From assembly GCF_001753675.2 (NCBI RefSeq), contig NZ_MJUW02000101.1:1-64000 (forward strand): a stretch of DNA of 64,000 nucleotides, in the 5' to 3' direction. This DNA is from Candidatus Brocadia sapporoensis (GTDB lineage Bacteria > Planctomycetota > Brocadiia > Brocadiales > Brocadiaceae). The position numbers and the translations under genes are program-made. This document shows positions 13,432 through 21,857 of the stretch, piece by piece (positions within the stretch are counted from its first letter, which is position 1; every line of letters starts with the position of its first letter). The notes beneath the pieces were generated by a model that worked only from the letters and a program-made list of their open reading frames with translations, ran no database searches and had not been told where the DNA came from.

Positions 13432-14670
13432 ATGCTCTTTTTCTTCTCCTTCTGTCGTCGGAAGGGGGCTATCGTATCCATAAATCAGGAAGATTGTCAA
13501 AAGGGCAATTTAACAATAGTACAAGCATTATTTATGCAATCATTGAAACACTTGCTTATAGAAAGCATAAAGGAGAAAGGAAGGATTACCTTTGCAGAGT
13601 TTATGCAAACGGCACTCTATCATCCTGAATATGGTTATTATAACTCGAAACGGGAACAAGTTGGAAAACAGGGTGATTATTACACAGGCCCTACCGTCTA
13701 CAGGATCTTTGGAGAACTCCTCGCAAGACAATTGGAAGAGATGTGGAGGCTTATGGAGAAAGAGCCATTTGCCGTTGTGGAAATAGGTGCGAACAAAGGG
13801 TGGTTATGCTGCGACATCATTCAATATATTATGAATGCATACCCGGAATTTTATAACAAATTTCATTACATTATCGTTGAATCGAATCCTTATGCAAGGG
13901 AAAAACAGAGATTGCTTTTAGAATCTATTGAAGTAGCGGACGAGAAGGTGTCATGGCACACTTACACAGAAGATGGATTTTCGTTTGACAAGATCCACGG
14001 ATGTTTTTTGTCCAATGAATTTGTAGATGCCCTGCCGGTACATCGGTTAAAGCTAGAAAATAAGGTTTTAAAAGAGATCTATGTGGGTTATAATGGGAAG
14101 AAATTTTGCGAAATAGATGATGATGTATCGTTACCGGCGTTACACTGTTATCTCGAAACGAATAATATAAATCTCGATGAAGGCCAGGTATGTGAGATAA
14201 ATTTGGGCGCTGCAGATTGGCTAAAACATGTTTCGGAAAAATTGGACAAAGGATTTATGATAACGATTGATTACGGTGATACCCGGGACAGGCTATATCA
14301 TGAAAATATGCGTGAAGGAACACTGCGATGCTATCATAGCCATACGGTCAACCGTGATTACTATGAACGGCCGGGTGAACAAGACATTACTGCACATGTG
14401 GATTTTTCGAACCTGATAAACGCAGGAAGATCCGTACAGTTAGAAGAGACGGGTTTTATACAACAAGCCCATTTTCTGATTGCTTTGGGTATTCTAGAAA
14501 GATTCCAGGAGACAAAATATAATACTGATACAACACTGAAACTAAAAAACCTTCTTCATCCTGAGGCGATGGGAGAGATTTTCAAAGTGCTCATTCAGCA
14601 CAAGAATATCAAAAATCCCCAGCTAACCGGTTTAAGGCCGTTACAATCGGTAATCATGAGTACCCGTTAA
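13432..14670 (+). CDS. MidA/NDUFAF7-family SAM-dependent methyltransferase
   Basis: The 412-residue protein matches the DUF185 family, whose eukaryotic member NDUFAF7 methylates an arginine of respiratory complex I. Visible signatures are GRITFAEFMQTALYHPEYGYY, a Rossmann segment VVEIGANKGW in place of the usual GxGxG loop, and SNEFVDALPVHR. The start at 13432 is uncertain: ATG at 13534 also fits and aligns better with the family N terminus, neither having a good Shine-Dalgarno. It follows the epimerase directly. Its role in complex I maturation here is inferred from the family. Confidence 0.85.
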   Translation: MLFFFSFCRRKGAIVSINQEDCQKGNLTIVQALFMQSLKHLLIESIKEKGRITFAEFMQTALYHPEYGYYNSKREQVGKQGDYYTGPTVYRIFGELLARQLEEMWRLMEKEPFAVVEIGANKGWLCCDIIQYIMNAYPEFYNKFHYIIVESNPYAREKQRLLLESIEVADEKVSWHTYTEDGFSFDKIHGCFLSNEFVDALPVHRLKLENKVLKEIYVGYNGKKFCEIDDDVSLPALHCYLETNNINLDEGQVCEINLGAADWLKHVSEKLDKGFMITIDYGDTRDRLYHENMREGTLRCYHSHTVNRDYYERPGEQDITAHVDFSNLINAGRSVQLEETGFIQQAHFLIALGILERFQETKYNTDTTLKLKNLLHPEAMGEIFKVLIQHKNIKNPQLTGLRPLQSVIMSTR

Positions 14671-14782: not shown

Positions 14783-15031
14783 ATGAAGATTGATCAAGCA
14801 TCAGAACCAGGCACCATCATAATGGATGTGCTCATTGAGGCAATCAAGCGGGAACAAGAATCATATGATTATTACTATCGGGCGGCATTGCAGGCGGCGA
14901 AGCCTGCCACGCGTAAAATGTTACTTACCCTTGCGGAATGGGAAAAGGGACATATCGCTGAGTTAACCAAACATGTTTTGGAACTTAAGTCCCAGAAAGA
15001 GATCGATCGGGCTATTACCGGAGGTTTGTAA
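14783..15031 (+). CDS. Short ferritin-like (rubrerythrin-type) protein
   Basis: The 82-residue product has two helices resembling half of a rubrerythrin four-helix bundle: IKREQESYDYYYRAA and LAEWEKGHIAELTKHV, carrying an ExxxY and an ExxH-type iron ligand set. Full rubrerythrins have four helices and about 140 residues, so this one would need to dimerise to form a di-iron site. A strong GGAAGGAGGG precedes the ATG, so it is a genuine short gene rather than a fragment. It may protect against oxygen or peroxide. Confidence 0.8.
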   Translation: MKIDQASEPGTIIMDVLIEAIKREQESYDYYYRAALQAAKPATRKMLLTLAEWEKGHIAELTKHVLELKSQKEIDRAITGGL

Positions 15032-15181: not shown

Positions 15182-16159
15182 ATGATGGATATTAAACGGG
15201 AAGATTTATTACAACTATATTATTACCTTAAATTGACTCGAAGATTAGAAGACCGTGCTACATCACTCTATCATCAGGGTAAGATATTGGGAGGTGTCTG
15301 GACGAGCAACGGTACAGAGGCCGTTTCCGTCGGGTACGGCTACGCCCTTGAAAAAAATGATATTGCGGCACCATACTTTCGGGATATGGGGGTTTTCTTA
15401 ATTCGGGGTATTACGGCAAAACGGATTATGGCACAGTATCTCGGCAAAAAAACAGGCGTTACCGGTGGTAAGGAAGGAAATGTCCACGTGGGTGATTTAC
15501 ATTTTGGTGTATTTGGTTTTCCCAGCCATCTGACGGATAATTATCCTGTAGGAGCAGGCGCCGCTCTTGCCTTTAAAATGCGCGGTGAAAAAAGGGTTGT
15601 TGCTGCATGTACTGGGGATGGGGGAACGAGTCGCGGTGATTTCCATGAAGGAATGAATATCGCAGCGGTAAGAAAATTGCCCATTGTATTTATTTGCAAC
15701 AATAATCAATACGCCTATTCTACCCCGCTAAAACTCCAGATGGCTATCAAAAATGTTGCTGAACGTGCCCTGGCTTACGGCATGCCCAGCAAGATCGTAG
15801 ACGGAAATAATGTGGTGGAAGTATACGCGGCGGCAAAAGAAGCATACGAGGTGGCGAGAAACGGGGGTGGACCTACCTTTATCGAATGTAAGACCATGAG
15901 GATGCATGGTCATTCAGAACACGATAGCGCCAAATACGTTCCCCGCGAACTCCTGGAAGAATGGAAGAAAAAGGATCCTATCTTGTACATGGAGACATAT
16001 TTGGTGGGAAATCAGATCGCTAAAAAGGAGGAACTGGATAGTATCGATTTACGGGTGAAAAAAGAGATTGAAGAGGCGGAGGTGTTTGCTGAGGAAAGCC
16101 CGTATTCTGAACCAGAAGATGTTTTGAAGGGTCTTTATGCAACACCAGTAGAGGAGTAG
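15182..16159 (+). CDS. pdhA: Pyruvate (2-oxoacid) dehydrogenase E1 alpha
   Basis: The 325-residue thiamine diphosphate subunit decarboxylates a 2-oxoacid and reductively acetylates the E2 lipoyl group with E1 beta. It contains the TPP-binding motif GDGGTS...NNNQYAYS at 145-180, TGGKEGNVH, and the phospho-loop region MRMHGHSEHD. The family also includes acetoin dehydrogenase AcoA; the following lipB and lipA genes favour a pyruvate dehydrogenase complex. It is the first gene of an operon with E1 beta five bases downstream. No E3 (dihydrolipoamide dehydrogenase) is encoded in this cluster. Confidence 0.92.
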   Translation: MMDIKREDLLQLYYYLKLTRRLEDRATSLYHQGKILGGVWTSNGTEAVSVGYGYALEKNDIAAPYFRDMGVFLIRGITAKRIMAQYLGKKTGVTGGKEGNVHVGDLHFGVFGFPSHLTDNYPVGAGAALAFKMRGEKRVVAACTGDGGTSRGDFHEGMNIAAVRKLPIVFICNNNQYAYSTPLKLQMAIKNVAERALAYGMPSKIVDGNNVVEVYAAAKEAYEVARNGGGPTFIECKTMRMHGHSEHDSAKYVPRELLEEWKKKDPILYMETYLVGNQIAKKEELDSIDLRVKKEIEEAEVFAEESPYSEPEDVLKGLYATPVEE

Positions 16160-16164
16160 ATGTC

Positions 16165-17139
16165 ATGAAAGAAACGACCTATCTTGAGGCGATCAAAGAG
16201 GCATTGGATGAAGAAATGGCACGAGATCCAGACGTATTTATTTTGGGTGAAGACGTAGGGGTATATGGTGGTGCATTTCGTGTTACGGAAGGCCTTTCAG
16301 AGAAGTATGGTGAATGGCGTGTCTTTGATACCCCGTTATCGGAATCCGGTTTTACCGGTGCTGCCATTGGTGCAGCACTTGTGGGAATGCGGCCTGTCGT
16401 CGAGATGCAGTTTGCCGATTTTGTCTCCTGTGCCTTTGATCAATTGGTAAATGTGGCAGCAAAGAATCATTACCGATGGGGTGCTGCTACTCCCCTTGTT
16501 GTGCGGGCGCCGTATGGAGGAAATGTGCATGGCGGGGCATTTCATTCACAATGTATCGAAGGGTTCTTTTTTAATGTGCCCGGACTTAAAATCGTTGCCC
16601 CTTCAACGGCATATGATGCCAAAGGTCTGTTAAAGGCTGCTATTCGCGATAACGACCCTGTTATTTATTGCGAACATAAATATCTCTACAGGCGCATTAA
16701 AGATCACATTCCTGAAGAAGATTATGCCGTGCCAATAGGAAAGGCACGAATTGCTATTGAGGGAAATGACGTATCAATTATTACCTACGGGGCAATGGTT
16801 CATACTGCAATTGAGGCTGCACAAACGCTTAAAGAAAGTGGTGTTTCCTGCGAAATTATTGATTTAAGGACAATCTTACCATTGGACAGAAAATCAATTC
16901 TTACTACGGTAAAGAAGACGAACAAGGTCGTTGTATTGCATGAACAAACGAAAACGGGCGGTGTTGGTGCCGAGATCTCTGCCTTAATCAGCGAATCCTG
17001 TTTTGATTATTTAGATGGACCAATTATTCGCATAGCTGCTCCGGATACCCCGGTGCCCTATAGTGCTCAGATGGAAGAGGCCTTTATACCCCAGCCAAAG
17101 GATCTTATCACGGCAGTAGAGAAATTAATGCGTTATTAA
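16165..17139 (+). CDS. pdhB: Pyruvate (2-oxoacid) dehydrogenase E1 beta
   Basis: The 324-residue subunit pairs with E1 alpha. It has the transketolase central region with FILGEDVGVYGGAF, RVFDTPLSESGFTGAAIG, the MQFADFVSCAFDQ segment and a C-terminal transketolase domain (IIDLRTILPLD, VVLHEQTKTGGVGAEI). Length and motifs are complete. It lies between E1 alpha and E2 with short gaps, so it is cotranscribed. Confidence 0.94.
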   Translation: MKETTYLEAIKEALDEEMARDPDVFILGEDVGVYGGAFRVTEGLSEKYGEWRVFDTPLSESGFTGAAIGAALVGMRPVVEMQFADFVSCAFDQLVNVAAKNHYRWGAATPLVVRAPYGGNVHGGAFHSQCIEGFFFNVPGLKIVAPSTAYDAKGLLKAAIRDNDPVIYCEHKYLYRRIKDHIPEEDYAVPIGKARIAIEGNDVSIITYGAMVHTAIEAAQTLKESGVSCEIIDLRTILPLDRKSILTTVKKTNKVVVLHEQTKTGGVGAEISALISESCFDYLDGPIIRIAAPDTPVPYSAQMEEAFIPQPKDLITAVEKLMRY

Positions 17140-17155: not shown

Positions 17156-18421
17156 ATGTTTGTGAATGTAATCATGCCGCAGATGGGTGAAAGTGTTGCA
17201 GAAGGGACCATTATTCGATGGTTGGTACATGAAGGAGATAGGGTTGAAAAAGAACAACCCCTTGTTGAAATCAGTACAGACAAGATTGATACCGAGGTAC
17301 CTTCTCCAGCAAGTGGCATTGTAAAAAAAATATTTTATCCCGGGGGAAAGACGCTTCCTGTTCAGGAAGTGATTGCTCAAATTGAGTCCATTGAAGCAAA
17401 AGAAGGCGTGGTCAATGCTGGAGGAGCGAGTGGTTATTCGCCCCTGCTTGAAACCACAAAGAAGATTGAAACAGTTGAGGCGACAAAAGAAATTGAAGGA
17501 GCAGAAGAGAGAGAAAAACGATACTCGCCCCTGGTAAAAAAATTGGCTCAGGAATACGAGGTTAATTTAGAAGAGATACAGGGTACGGGTGAAGGTGGTC
17601 GGGTGACCAAAAAAAACATTATGGACTATGTCGCAGCAAAATCGGGCGCTATTGCACCCCCGCCGGTAACTGAAGAAAAGGTTTTTGAGAAGGATGTGCT
17701 TATTCCATTAAGCCCGAAACGAAAAATTACCGCGGACAAGATGATCCAGAGCAAACGGACAGCTGCTCATGTGACAACGGTATTTGAGGTCGATATGACA
17801 AAGATTATAAAGTGTCGGGAGATGAACAAGGACGGTATGAAACGTGAGGACATTCATCTTACGTATCTTCCTTTTATAACTATAGCTACGGCGCGCACCC
17901 TCAAGGAACACCCTATCATGAATGCCTCGTGGACGGAAGAAGGTATTGTCCAGAAGAACAATATCAATATTGGAATTGCGGTATCTCTTGAAGACGGATT
18001 AATCGTTCCGGTAATAAAAGATGCTGACAAGAAAGATCTGTTGCAATTGGCAAAAGATATTCAAGGCATTGCCCGGCGTGCACGTGCTAAAAAGTTAAAA
18101 CCAGAAGATGTCCAGGAAGGGACGTTTACTATTACGAACTATGGTATTAATGGAAGCCTGTTTGGGACACCAGTTATCTTACTTCCGCAGGTCGCAATCC
18201 TGGGTGTCGGTACAGTCGTCAAAAGGCCAGTCGTCGTAGATGATGCGATTGCGATTCGACCGATGATGTATCTCGCTCTTTCGTTTGATCATCGGGTCAT
18301 GGATGGTGCCAACGCCGATGCATTTCTTCGTGCAATAAAAGAGAGGTTAGAAAAATGGGAGGTTTTAGCTTATGATACGAAGCGGTCTTCTTCTTCAACT
18401 GGATACGGTGGAGTATGGTGA
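17156..18421 (+). CDS. pdhC: Dihydrolipoamide acyltransferase E2
   Basis: The 421-residue core subunit has one N-terminal lipoyl domain with the modified lysine in STDKIDTEVPS (Lys43), a peripheral-subunit-binding domain around 115-155 (SPLVKKLAQEYEVNLEEIQGTG region), and a catalytic acyltransferase domain ending in DHRVMDG with His379. AAAGAGG precedes the ATG. The last 50 bases overlap lipB, whose product makes its lipoyl cofactor. The C-terminal tail after the catalytic domain (SSSSTGYGGVW) is probably disordered and exists because of the overlap. Confidence 0.94.
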   Translation: MFVNVIMPQMGESVAEGTIIRWLVHEGDRVEKEQPLVEISTDKIDTEVPSPASGIVKKIFYPGGKTLPVQEVIAQIESIEAKEGVVNAGGASGYSPLLETTKKIETVEATKEIEGAEEREKRYSPLVKKLAQEYEVNLEEIQGTGEGGRVTKKNIMDYVAAKSGAIAPPPVTEEKVFEKDVLIPLSPKRKITADKMIQSKRTAAHVTTVFEVDMTKIIKCREMNKDGMKREDIHLTYLPFITIATARTLKEHPIMNASWTEEGIVQKNNINIGIAVSLEDGLIVPVIKDADKKDLLQLAKDIQGIARRARAKKLKPEDVQEGTFTITNYGINGSLFGTPVILLPQVAILGVGTVVKRPVVVDDAIAIRPMMYLALSFDHRVMDGANADAFLRAIKERLEKWEVLAYDTKRSSSSTGYGGVW

Positions 18422-19079
18422 GGCCTGGGAATTACAAAAGGCGCTGCTTGAGGCAAGAATTTCTGATACGACAGGAGATTGTCTTATTTTGCTTCAACAT
18501 CCGCCCACCTTTACCTACGGACGTAGATACAAAGAAGACGACTTAATAGCAAACCGTGAATATTACGAGAATAATGGTTTCTCTATTTATAAAACTGATC
18601 GGGGTGGGTTAGCAACTTATCACGGTCCTGGTCAGGCAGTTGGTTATTCCATCATGAAAATGTCCACATACACAAATGATTACTATCAATATCTACGGAT
18701 GTTGGAAGATGTGATTATAAGAACATTGTCATGCTTTGGTATTGTTGCAGAACGGAATGAAGGATATACAGGAGTTTGGGTAAATAAGGCAAAGATTGGG
18801 TTTGTTGGTGTTCGGGTCGCATTGGGTTACACCATGCATGGATTTTCTCTTAACGTAAACAATGATTTAACGCCTTTCAATTTCATCACTCCCTGCGGAA
18901 TTCAAGGGGTGAGAATTACTTCTATCCAGGAATTGCTAAACGAAAGTATCAGCGTAAAAGAGGTTTATGATAAACTCGCAAATCTTTATTCAGATGTGTT
19001 TCAGGTACGATTGATACCTGTTGAGATGAAGACATTAATGCAAGGTATTGGCCTTGCAGGAAATTATGTGAGGGTATAA
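18372..19079 (+). CDS. lipB: Octanoyl-ACP:protein octanoyltransferase
   Basis: The 235-residue LipB moves octanoate from acyl carrier protein to the lipoyl lysine of E2. It shows RGGLATYHGPGQ, the conserved lysine in NKAKIGFVGVRV, the HGFSLNV segment and the catalytic cysteine in ITPCGI. The GGGAGGTTTTAGCTTATG context at 18355-18374 supplies a ribosome site inside the E2 gene, so the start at 18372 creates a 50-base out-of-frame overlap. It acts with LipA encoded two genes downstream. Confidence 0.93.
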   Translation: MIRSGLLLQLDTVEYGEAWELQKALLEARISDTTGDCLILLQHPPTFTYGRRYKEDDLIANREYYENNGFSIYKTDRGGLATYHGPGQAVGYSIMKMSTYTNDYYQYLRMLEDVIIRTLSCFGIVAERNEGYTGVWVNKAKIGFVGVRVALGYTMHGFSLNVNNDLTPFNFITPCGIQGVRITSIQELLNESISVKEVYDKLANLYSDVFQVRLIPVEMKTLMQGIGLAGNYVRV

Positions 19080-19091
19080 ATATCATTATTT

Positions 19092-19934
19092 ATGGATAAA
19101 CAGGAAATTACAAATAAAAAAAATGATAGTGATAGCATTCGTGAGGAAGGGATAAAAGCAGGAATCTTTGGCAGTATAAAAGACAGGGGGGAAGTCGATC
19201 AGGTAGTCCGTGATCGATTGATGGGAGGACCGCGCGGTCCTGAAAAGATAATATTTAAAGACGGAAGCGCTGTAATATTTAAGTGTGATGTCAGACGTTA
19301 CTGGAAGGCGCAAAATCCTGATACCCCGATTCGGGAAGCGATTGTTTATCAAATCGATAAAATTGTGGGGCTTGGAGCAGTGCCCAAGACGATGGTAATT
19401 GATGACATGATCGATAACGTACGATATGACGGTTCGGTCCAGGAGTGGATTAAAGGCGCTAAAGATGGCTACCAGATAGAAAGATTTACGTACGAAGAAA
19501 AAAAAATTTTTGAACAACTAAAGATTTTTGATTTCGTTATTGGAAATAGCGACAGGCACCTGGGAAATGTCTTGTTTACCGGTGACGATAAGTTACATGC
19601 TATAGATAATGGTGCATGCCTTATTATTGAAAAAGACGAGGATATTTTGTCATTTTCAGATTCAATAATACATTTCTTTAGCAGGCACGTTGTTCATGAT
19701 ATGCCTCATATTGTAGAATTTATAGAAAAGTTTTATTACAGTAAAGATATGATATTAAATTTGATAGATAAATACATACACGATAATACAGAACTGGCTA
19801 AGCTTATGGTGGAGTCAAGAATTAATTATCTGCATAATATGCTAAAGAGGGATAGACCGTTTTCCAGGAAATATAGGGAATGGAGAAAAGGGTTGCAAGA
19901 AGAAATACAAGATATACTCAAAAAAAGAAAGTAA
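19092..19934 (+). CDS. PI3/PI4-kinase-like (HipA-fold) protein in lipoate operon
   Basis: The 280-residue protein carries a reduced kinase core: KDGSAVIFKCDVRRYW with a probable ATP-binding lysine, the GSVQEW segment, the catalytic loop FVIGNSDRHLGNVL (D..H..N), and the metal-binding IDNG. This resembles the bacterial PI3/4-kinase-like family related to HipA and Fam20. It sits between lipB and lipA with gaps of 12 and 52 bases, so it is probably cotranscribed. Substrate and link to lipoylation are unknown. Residues 200-280 are helical and have no recognised domain. Confidence 0.75.
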   Translation: MDKQEITNKKNDSDSIREEGIKAGIFGSIKDRGEVDQVVRDRLMGGPRGPEKIIFKDGSAVIFKCDVRRYWKAQNPDTPIREAIVYQIDKIVGLGAVPKTMVIDDMIDNVRYDGSVQEWIKGAKDGYQIERFTYEEKKIFEQLKIFDFVIGNSDRHLGNVLFTGDDKLHAIDNGACLIIEKDEDILSFSDSIIHFFSRHVVHDMPHIVEFIEKFYYSKDMILNLIDKYIHDNTELAKLMVESRINYLHNMLKRDRPFSRKYREWRKGLQEEIQDILKKRK

Positions 19935-19986: not shown

Positions 19987-20841
19987 ATGCGCCCAAACTG
20001 GTTAAGAATAAAGTTACCCAGTGGTAAAAATTTCAATGAGATACGAGGTATTTTACAGGAAAATCGGCTTCATACCGTTTGCGTGGAGGCAATGTGTCCG
20101 AATATCGGTGAATGCTTTGAACGACGAACCGTAACATTTTTGATGCTCGGCAATACCTGTACAAGATCGTGTGGATTTTGTGCTGTAAAGAAGGGAAGCC
20201 CTTCTGGAGTAGACAAGGAAGAGCCGCGTCGGATTGCGGAAGCTATACAGAAAATAGGGCTGGAATATGTAGTACTTACTTCAGTAACGAGAGACGACCT
20301 CCCCGATGGTGGTGCATCCATTTATGCCGAGGCAATCACTCTCATTCGGGAGTACATTAAAAACTGTAGAATCGAAGTATTAATACCTGATTTTTGCAAC
20401 TCACCAGACGCATTAGATATGGTAATTCATGCCAGACCCGACATCGTTAATCATAACATAGAAACGGTGCCCCGCCTTTATTCCCTCGTAAGGCCAATGG
20501 CCAACTATGGGTATTCATTAAAATTGTTGAAAGATATACGCAAGAAAAATCCCTCGTTAATAACAAAATCAGGATTTATGGTAGGGCTGGGTGAGACCTG
20601 GGACGAAATAATTGACGTCATGGGTGATATAAAGAATGCACAATGTGATATGCTTACGATTGGACAATATCTGAGCCCCCACAAAAATGCCCTGACGGTA
20701 CATCGTTATTATAAACCAGAAGAATTCGAAAGACTCCGGTTGGAAGGGGAAAGGATGGGATTCCATTCTATTGAATCAGGGCCGCTTGTACGGAGTTCCT
20801 ATCATGCGCACATGCAATCCTGCAAGATTTTGACCTCATAG
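19987..20841 (+). CDS. lipA: Lipoyl synthase
   Basis: LipA inserts two sulfurs into octanoyl-E2 using two 4Fe-4S clusters. All ligands are present: the auxiliary-cluster motif Cys32-x4-Cys37-x5-Cys43 and the radical SAM motif Cys58-x3-Cys62-x2-Cys65. The C-terminal RSSYHA holds the serine that also ligates the auxiliary cluster. The 284-residue length is typical. It is the last gene of the dehydrogenase-lipoate operon. Confidence 0.96.
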   Translation: MRPNWLRIKLPSGKNFNEIRGILQENRLHTVCVEAMCPNIGECFERRTVTFLMLGNTCTRSCGFCAVKKGSPSGVDKEEPRRIAEAIQKIGLEYVVLTSVTRDDLPDGGASIYAEAITLIREYIKNCRIEVLIPDFCNSPDALDMVIHARPDIVNHNIETVPRLYSLVRPMANYGYSLKLLKDIRKKNPSLITKSGFMVGLGETWDEIIDVMGDIKNAQCDMLTIGQYLSPHKNALTVHRYYKPEEFERLRLEGERMGFHSIESGPLVRSSYHAHMQSCKILTS

Positions 20842-20951: not shown

Positions 20952-21857
20952 ATGGCAGTGATGGCAGACGCAGATATACATAAAAGCTTATTGGATAGCT
21001 TGTCTGGGGGAATTTGTGCTATTGACAGGGACAGGGTAATCACTTACTGGAATAAAACTACGGAAACTCTTACCGGACACAAGAATTCTGATACCATGGG
21101 AAAGTGTTGCAGAGATGATATTTTGATGTATGTAGATGAGCAGGGGAGGGGTGTTTGTGAAAACGAATGTATGGCAACGGGAACAATGAATGACGGTAGC
21201 CCGCGGAGTATGGAAGTATATGCTCATCATAAAAAGGGTTATCGTGTGCCGGTCTTGGTTCGCATATTACCTCTGAAAAATATAGATGGGCAGATTATCG
21301 GTGCTATTGAGGAACTTCATGACAATTCTTCAAAGCTCGAGTATGTCCGCAAGATTGAAGAACTCGAGAAATGCGCCTTGCTTGACTCTCTCACCGGATT
21401 AGTGAAAAGACGCGGGTTGGAAATGAACTTGCGAACCATGTTTGATATTATGCATAGGTACGGCTGGTCATACGGGGTTTTTTTAGTTGATATCGATGGA
21501 TTAAAAAGGGTGAATGATTTGTATGGTTCTGAAATTGGGGATGCAGTAATAAAAATGGTGTCAAAGACGATTTTACATAGCGTAAGGGCGTCGGATATGG
21601 TAGGTCGGTGGGGGGGGGAAGAATTTATGGTAATCGCCATGAATGTTGCCGAGAATCATCTGTACACCATTGCAAATAAAATTCGTGTTCTTAATGAACA
21701 GTCAGGCTTTTTTGTGGGGTCTGATGCTATTCGCGTGACGGTATCCGTGTCGGCCACGGTTGCACAATCAAAAGATACAGTCGATTCTTTATTAAAAAGA
21801 ATAAACCACTTGATGCATCAGGCGAAGTCCTCCGGCAAGAATTGTGTGTCGGTATAA
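20952..21857 (+). CDS. PAS-GGDEF diguanylate cyclase
   Basis: The 301-residue soluble protein has a PAS domain (residues 10-125, SGGICAIDRDRVITYWN) and a GGDEF domain (140-300). The active-site motif is GGEEF at 221-225, compatible with c-di-GMP synthesis, and an RASD sequence at 212-215 five residues before it is a canonical product-inhibition I-site (RxxD). Cysteines in the PAS domain (Cys52, 53, 69, 73) could bind a cofactor. It likely feeds the c-di-GMP pool read by the two riboswitches in this window. Starts at 20952 or 20961 are both possible. Confidence 0.92.
   Translation: MAVMADADIHKSLLDSLSGGICAIDRDRVITYWNKTTETLTGHKNSDTMGKCCRDDILMYVDEQGRGVCENECMATGTMNDGSPRSMEVYAHHKKGYRVPVLVRILPLKNIDGQIIGAIEELHDNSSKLEYVRKIEELEKCALLDSLTGLVKRRGLEMNLRTMFDIMHRYGWSYGVFLVDIDGLKRVNDLYGSEIGDAVIKMVSKTILHSVRASDMVGRWGGEEFMVIAMNVAENHLYTIANKIRVLNEQSGFFVGSDAIRVTVSVSATVAQSKDTVDSLLKRINHLMHQAKSSGKNCVSV

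Follow-up and report, generated by a model that had tools for sequence, protein, structure and literature searches.

A candidate PI4K type II-like kinase gene beside the lipoylation genes in most genera of Brocadiaceae

Introduction

Eukaryotic pyruvate dehydrogenase (PDH) kinase, PDK, is a GHKL-fold kinase. Members of the PI3/PI4-kinase-like superfamily are expected to carry an ATP-binding lysine, a catalytic loop and metal-binding residues; PI4K itself phosphorylates a lipid, and its type II form (PI4KII) has a cysteine-rich palmitoylation motif. Aminoglycoside- and choline-kinase relatives phosphorylate small molecules, whilst CtkA and FAM20C are protein kinases. A plant type II PI4K-like protein is reported to act as a protein kinase, with lipid kinase activity not detectable (PMC6792133), and HipT is described as a protein kinase (PMC9325769).

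Anammox bacteria grow slowly and lend themselves poorly to genetic manipulation, and the regulation of their central carbon metabolism is little understood. Here, we describe a kinase-like gene, hereafter KIN, that is found throughout the family Brocadiaceae and in most genera lies beside PDH and lipoylation genes, which makes it a specific candidate for a regulator, open to in vitro assay. No publication on this gene turned up in literature searches.

The kinase gene and its cluster

The window, a stretch of 64,000 nucleotides from Candidatus Brocadia sapporoensis, carries on its forward strand the gene order E1alpha-E1beta-E2-lipB-KIN-lipA. The cluster encodes E1 alpha of a PDH-type 2-oxoacid dehydrogenase (15182..16159; PF00676, E 7e-79), E1 beta (16165..17139; PF02779/PF02780) and an E2 with a single lipoyl domain (17156..18421; PF00198, PF00364, PF02817), the 3' end of which overlaps lipB by 50 bp. 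The octanoyltransferase gene lipB (18372..19079; PF21948, E 5e-45) lies 12 bp upstream of KIN (19092..19934), an ORF of 280 aa with an ATG start, and a further 52 bp separates KIN from the lipoyl synthase gene lipA (19987..20841; PF04055 and PF16881). The initial annotation, which had placed a PI3/4-kinase-like gene between lipB and lipA with short gaps, is borne out in both respects, the ORF scoring above the Pfam gathering score for PI3_PI4_kinase. KIN is the sole PF00454 match in its genome, and an antisense ORF at 19086-19517 looks like a chance frame. A promoter and terminator scan, which was uninformative, found no terminator-like site between the genes.

Further genes flank the cluster. 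Upstream of E1 alpha, a Methyltransf_28 gene (13432-14670), which we take to belong to the NDUFAF7/MidA-like family, and a small rubrerythrin/DUF2383-like gene (14783-15031) are present in nearly all relatives. In the window's genus, lipA is followed by a PAS-GGDEF (diguanylate cyclase-like) gene (20952-21857), which was not seen at this position in other genera.

Kinase domain and predicted fold

The Pfam PI3_PI4_kinase profile (PF00454) matched the window protein at E 5.2e-7 (30.3 bits; gathering score 27.1) and likewise 25 of the 25 relatives scanned at E <= 0.1 (best E 4e-12). Conservation and the structural model together mark an N-lobe segment at residues 44-65 (19221..19286, forward strand, as are the other motifs of the protein), comprising a GGPRGPEKI segment that is nearly invariant in 25 Brocadiaceae members and strands (residues 51-55 and 60-64) running up to K64. 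This lysine, within the motif FKCD, is invariant in the family and in the phage kinases described below, and is the candidate ATP lysine. E82 (19335..19337), which aligns with E or D in relatives and falls within a model helix (78-92), is a candidate helix-C glutamate. The catalytic loop IGNSDRHLGN (residues 150-159; 19539..19568) has D154 as the predicted catalytic and N159 as a predicted metal-binding residue, and the pattern IGN-DRH--N holds without exception in the family and in four aligned phage relatives. AIDN (residues 170-173; 19599..19610) contains the invariant D172, the DFG-equivalent metal-binding aspartate. Altogether, K64, D154, R155, H156, N159 and D172 are invariant across the family alignment and the four phage homologues, so that the active site is apparently intact and ATP binding is predicted from these conserved residues. 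A functional kinase had been proposed from the DRHLGN-type loop; the invariant catalytic residues agree with this as a prediction of activity, and the loss of ATP binding that would speak against it is not what the sequence predicts.

A first model, for which the alignment held just close relatives, was of low quality (pLDDT 64), whereas an AlphaFold model with the four phage homologues added was a two-lobed kinase with pLDDT 81 and pTM 0.84. In a Foldseek search of the PDB, its best match was PI4KIIalpha (prob 1.00, E 7e-8, TM 0.54); PI4K type II alpha and beta ranked first, followed by PI3KC3, Helicobacter pylori CtkA (length-matched, TM 0.51/0.51) and a bacterial HipA_C-domain kinase (7vkb). 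With TM-scores of about 0.5 to any solved kinase, the model suggests a relation at the level of fold only. Profile searches of PDB sequences retrieved FAM20 kinases, PI4KII (PI4KIIbeta), SMG1, PI3K and HipT, whilst a phmmer search with the window protein alone gave only a marginal aminoglycoside-kinase match. Profile score, the DRH--N, metal-binding Asp and N-lobe Lys residues, and overall fold all place KIN in the PF00454 superfamily.

Comparison with described kinases brings out both likeness and distance. KIN has the same catalytic-loop and metal-site layout and the same order of N-lobe motifs (E...VPKT) as PI4KIIalpha/beta, but identity is only about 16-22%, TM is about 0.5 and the cysteine-rich palmitoylation motif is missing from its sequence. 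CtkA (PDB 3akl) and the HipT-type kinases (PDB 7vkb, 8ezr) are, like KIN, bacterial, of similar length and of the same fold class; however, KIN has no adjoining toxin-antitoxin partners, and sequence likeness is confined to the catalytic-loop region. The best NCBIfam match, to the SCO1664 family (TIGR03843), covers the catalytic loop at E 5e-10, but at 39.0 bits against a cut-off of 172.4 KIN is not a member of that family. PDK shares with KIN only the proposed role, PDH regulation by phosphorylation, and since the one has a GHKL fold and the other is PI3/4K-like, they are not homologous.

Distribution and selection

Across 33 Brocadiaceae genomes from 11 genera, including Brocadia, Jettenia, Loosdrechtia and Kuenenia, KIN orthologues occurred in 28, among them those of Kuenenia, with 63-79% identity to the window copy. 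Of the five genomes in which KIN was absent, four (G019, G023, G024 and G031) also lacked lipB; lipA starts at a contig edge in G024 and lies close to a contig end in G031, and the fifth assembly (G032), at 58% completeness, shows a run of N behind lipB. Given these contig ends, the low completeness and the missing lipB, most of the absences look more like assembly gaps than real loss. One Brocadia genome (G008) has an interrupted copy, with lipA close to a contig end. Pairwise dN/dS (Nei-Gojobori) for KIN was about 0.09-0.21, similar to that of lipB and lipA, indicating from sequence comparison that the gene is under purifying selection.

Beyond the family, profile searches covering the class (75 genomes) and the phylum (392 genomes) gave no KIN match at E <= 0.001 outside Brocadiaceae, and nothing was found by a single-sequence scan of genome contigs or by a plasmid search for KIN relatives. 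KIN is not common to all anammox bacteria, because families f2, f4 and f5 encode the hydrazine synthase alpha domain and lack KIN. As a side observation, this domain (PF18582) was present in 11 and 16 copies, within large proteins, in G064 and G065, which represent families f7 and f8 of the same class, outside Brocadiales, so that carrying the domain does not by itself prove anammox.

Gene neighbourhood and possible functions

A survey of gene neighbourhoods in relatives, the check proposed for the original observation, showed the position beside lipB to be conserved: lipB directly precedes KIN in 22 of 28 genomes, representing 8 of the 11 genera, a linkage that is widespread rather than obligatory. 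Nineteen genomes have the order lipB-KIN-lipA. In the three Jettenia genomes, lipB-KIN is not directly followed by lipA, which lies 10-20 kb from KIN and points the other way; MPP2-grpE-dnaK comes after KIN instead. As Brocadia keeps this block as a conserved unit in its own right, the Jettenia contact is a rearrangement junction. KIN lies away from the lipoate genes, with the PDH-lipB genes retained, in Kuenenia (three genomes), its sister genus g9, genus g3 and the Brocadia genome G008, whilst g9 and the outgroup G048 have lipB and lipA as direct neighbours, without KIN. In the kinase tree, the Kuenenia and g9 copies stand apart from the lip-located copies with weak support, and deep branches of both the kinase and PDH/lipB trees are weakly supported. 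Gaps from KIN to lipB and to lipA vary among genomes, up to several hundred bp, and general translational coupling is therefore not indicated. Two Brocadia genomes (G004 and G010) carry divergent KIN paralogues as second copies (L058 9253-10125; L059 8988-9860) in a phosphate-uptake (pst) operon, downstream of a chromate-transporter gene and overlapping pstC by 4 bp.

With moderate confidence, we read KIN as an atypical kinase, catalytically active and belonging to the PI3K/PI4K type II-like branch of the protein-kinase-like superfamily; it most likely acts on proteins (Ser/Thr) rather than lipids, and its target is probably not exclusive to PDH or lipoylation. KIN would already have been present in the Brocadiaceae ancestor and at some point been placed between an older lipB and lipA. 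Co-transcription with the PDH and lipoylation genes is probable in most genera, and through it the operon would bring KIN expression into line with central carbon and lipoate metabolism. Because KIN persists outside the operon in other genera and has a paralogue in the pst operon, we infer that its target is probably of a more general kind. If so, KIN would add to the evidence for PI3/4K-like folds as bacterial protein kinases.

A more specific role, that of a new regulator of E1/E2 or of lipoylation, had been suggested in the initial annotation. KIN would then phosphorylate E1alpha, E2, LipB or LipA and tune PDH flux or lipoylation, analogous to PDH kinase. The broad co-location with lipB has stood up, as have the single strand and short gaps free of any terminator-like site found, and the Jettenia copies remain with lipB although lipA has moved away. 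A dedicated role fits less well with the unlinked KIN and PDH-lipB genes of Kuenenia, g9 and g3, the kinase-free lipB-lipA pairs of g9 and the outgroup, the pst-operon paralogue and the variable gaps, and we regard it as rather unlikely. Long retention beside lipB in 8 genera could nevertheless reflect a genuine functional link with lipoylation, since lost or relocated in the other genera.

It is likewise doubtful, and to us slightly less credible, that the substrate of KIN is a lipid or small molecule, possibly a metabolite connected with lipoate or the membrane. Its best solved matches do include the lipid kinases PI4KII and PI3KC3, but CtkA, HipT and FAM20C, matched similarly by fold or profile, are protein kinases, and the plant type II PI4K-like protein, itself without detectable lipid kinase activity (PMC6792133), makes a protein substrate for KIN reasonable.

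That KIN forms the kinase half of a kinase/phosphoesterase pair, opposing the calcineurin-like metallophosphoesterase MPP1, appears improbable. MPP1 precedes KIN by 5 bp in all three Kuenenia genomes (L053 9040-10577; L054 8533-10136; L055 8743-10301) despite different flanks in G020, and lies 2.7 kb from KIN in g9; in Brocadia and Jettenia, however, MPP1 occupies another site, where its neighbours are a ParB-like gene and a conserved gene for a membrane protein. A similar kinase-phosphatase idea drawn from the KIN-MPP2 contact of Jettenia was dropped, as rearrangement had joined the lipB-KIN end to the conserved MPP2-grpE-dnaK block.

Least credible of all is that KIN is a HipA-like toxin or a functionless pseudokinase passenger, since the HipA_2 and HipA_C matches are weak (best E 0.0034 and 0.0064, confined to some family members, and none for the window protein) and the interrupted G008 copy stands against a gene that is near-universal and usually single-copy in the family, with low dN/dS, invariant catalytic residues and no HipB- or HipS-like partner found beside it, the profile-annotated neighbours, in all genomes but G012 and G008, being lipB/lipA, MPP1, MPP2 or pst genes.

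Origin

The family-wide occurrence of KIN implies its presence in the common ancestor of Brocadiaceae. The lipB-lipA pairs without KIN in g9 and G048, together with the kinase and PDH/lipB trees, indicate that it was probably inserted into an older lipB-lipA pair and was not obligatorily tied to the lipoate operon.

With cellular relatives sampled by pattern-based scans and within Planctomycetota, the best-scoring relatives outside the family were kinase domains encoded among tailed-phage structural genes, on IMG/VR contigs and in haloarchaeal tailed viruses (for example Halorubrum virus HRTV-2 gp16; IMG/VR loci L155-L167), one of those in the viruses being annotated as a phosphatidylinositol kinase. 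Four of these phage kinases were aligned and share K64, DRH--N and D172 with KIN, and that of L155 also shares a C-terminal FP+--EW motif. They are, however, only 23-25% identical to KIN and are mostly larger proteins with other regions, encoded in structural gene clusters. That the best-scoring relatives are of this kind suggests a phage source, and KIN possibly adds to the evidence for domestication of phage kinase domains. The fuller proposition, that Brocadiaceae domesticated a phage-derived PI4K-II-like kinase as a dedicated switch on PDH or lipoylation, seems to us a long shot; if true, KIN would be a bacterial counterpart of PDH kinase drawn from an unrelated kinase lineage. Among the phage loci, L155, L157, L162 and L168 are tailed-phage structural clusters that encode PI4K-like kinase domains, mostly within larger proteins.
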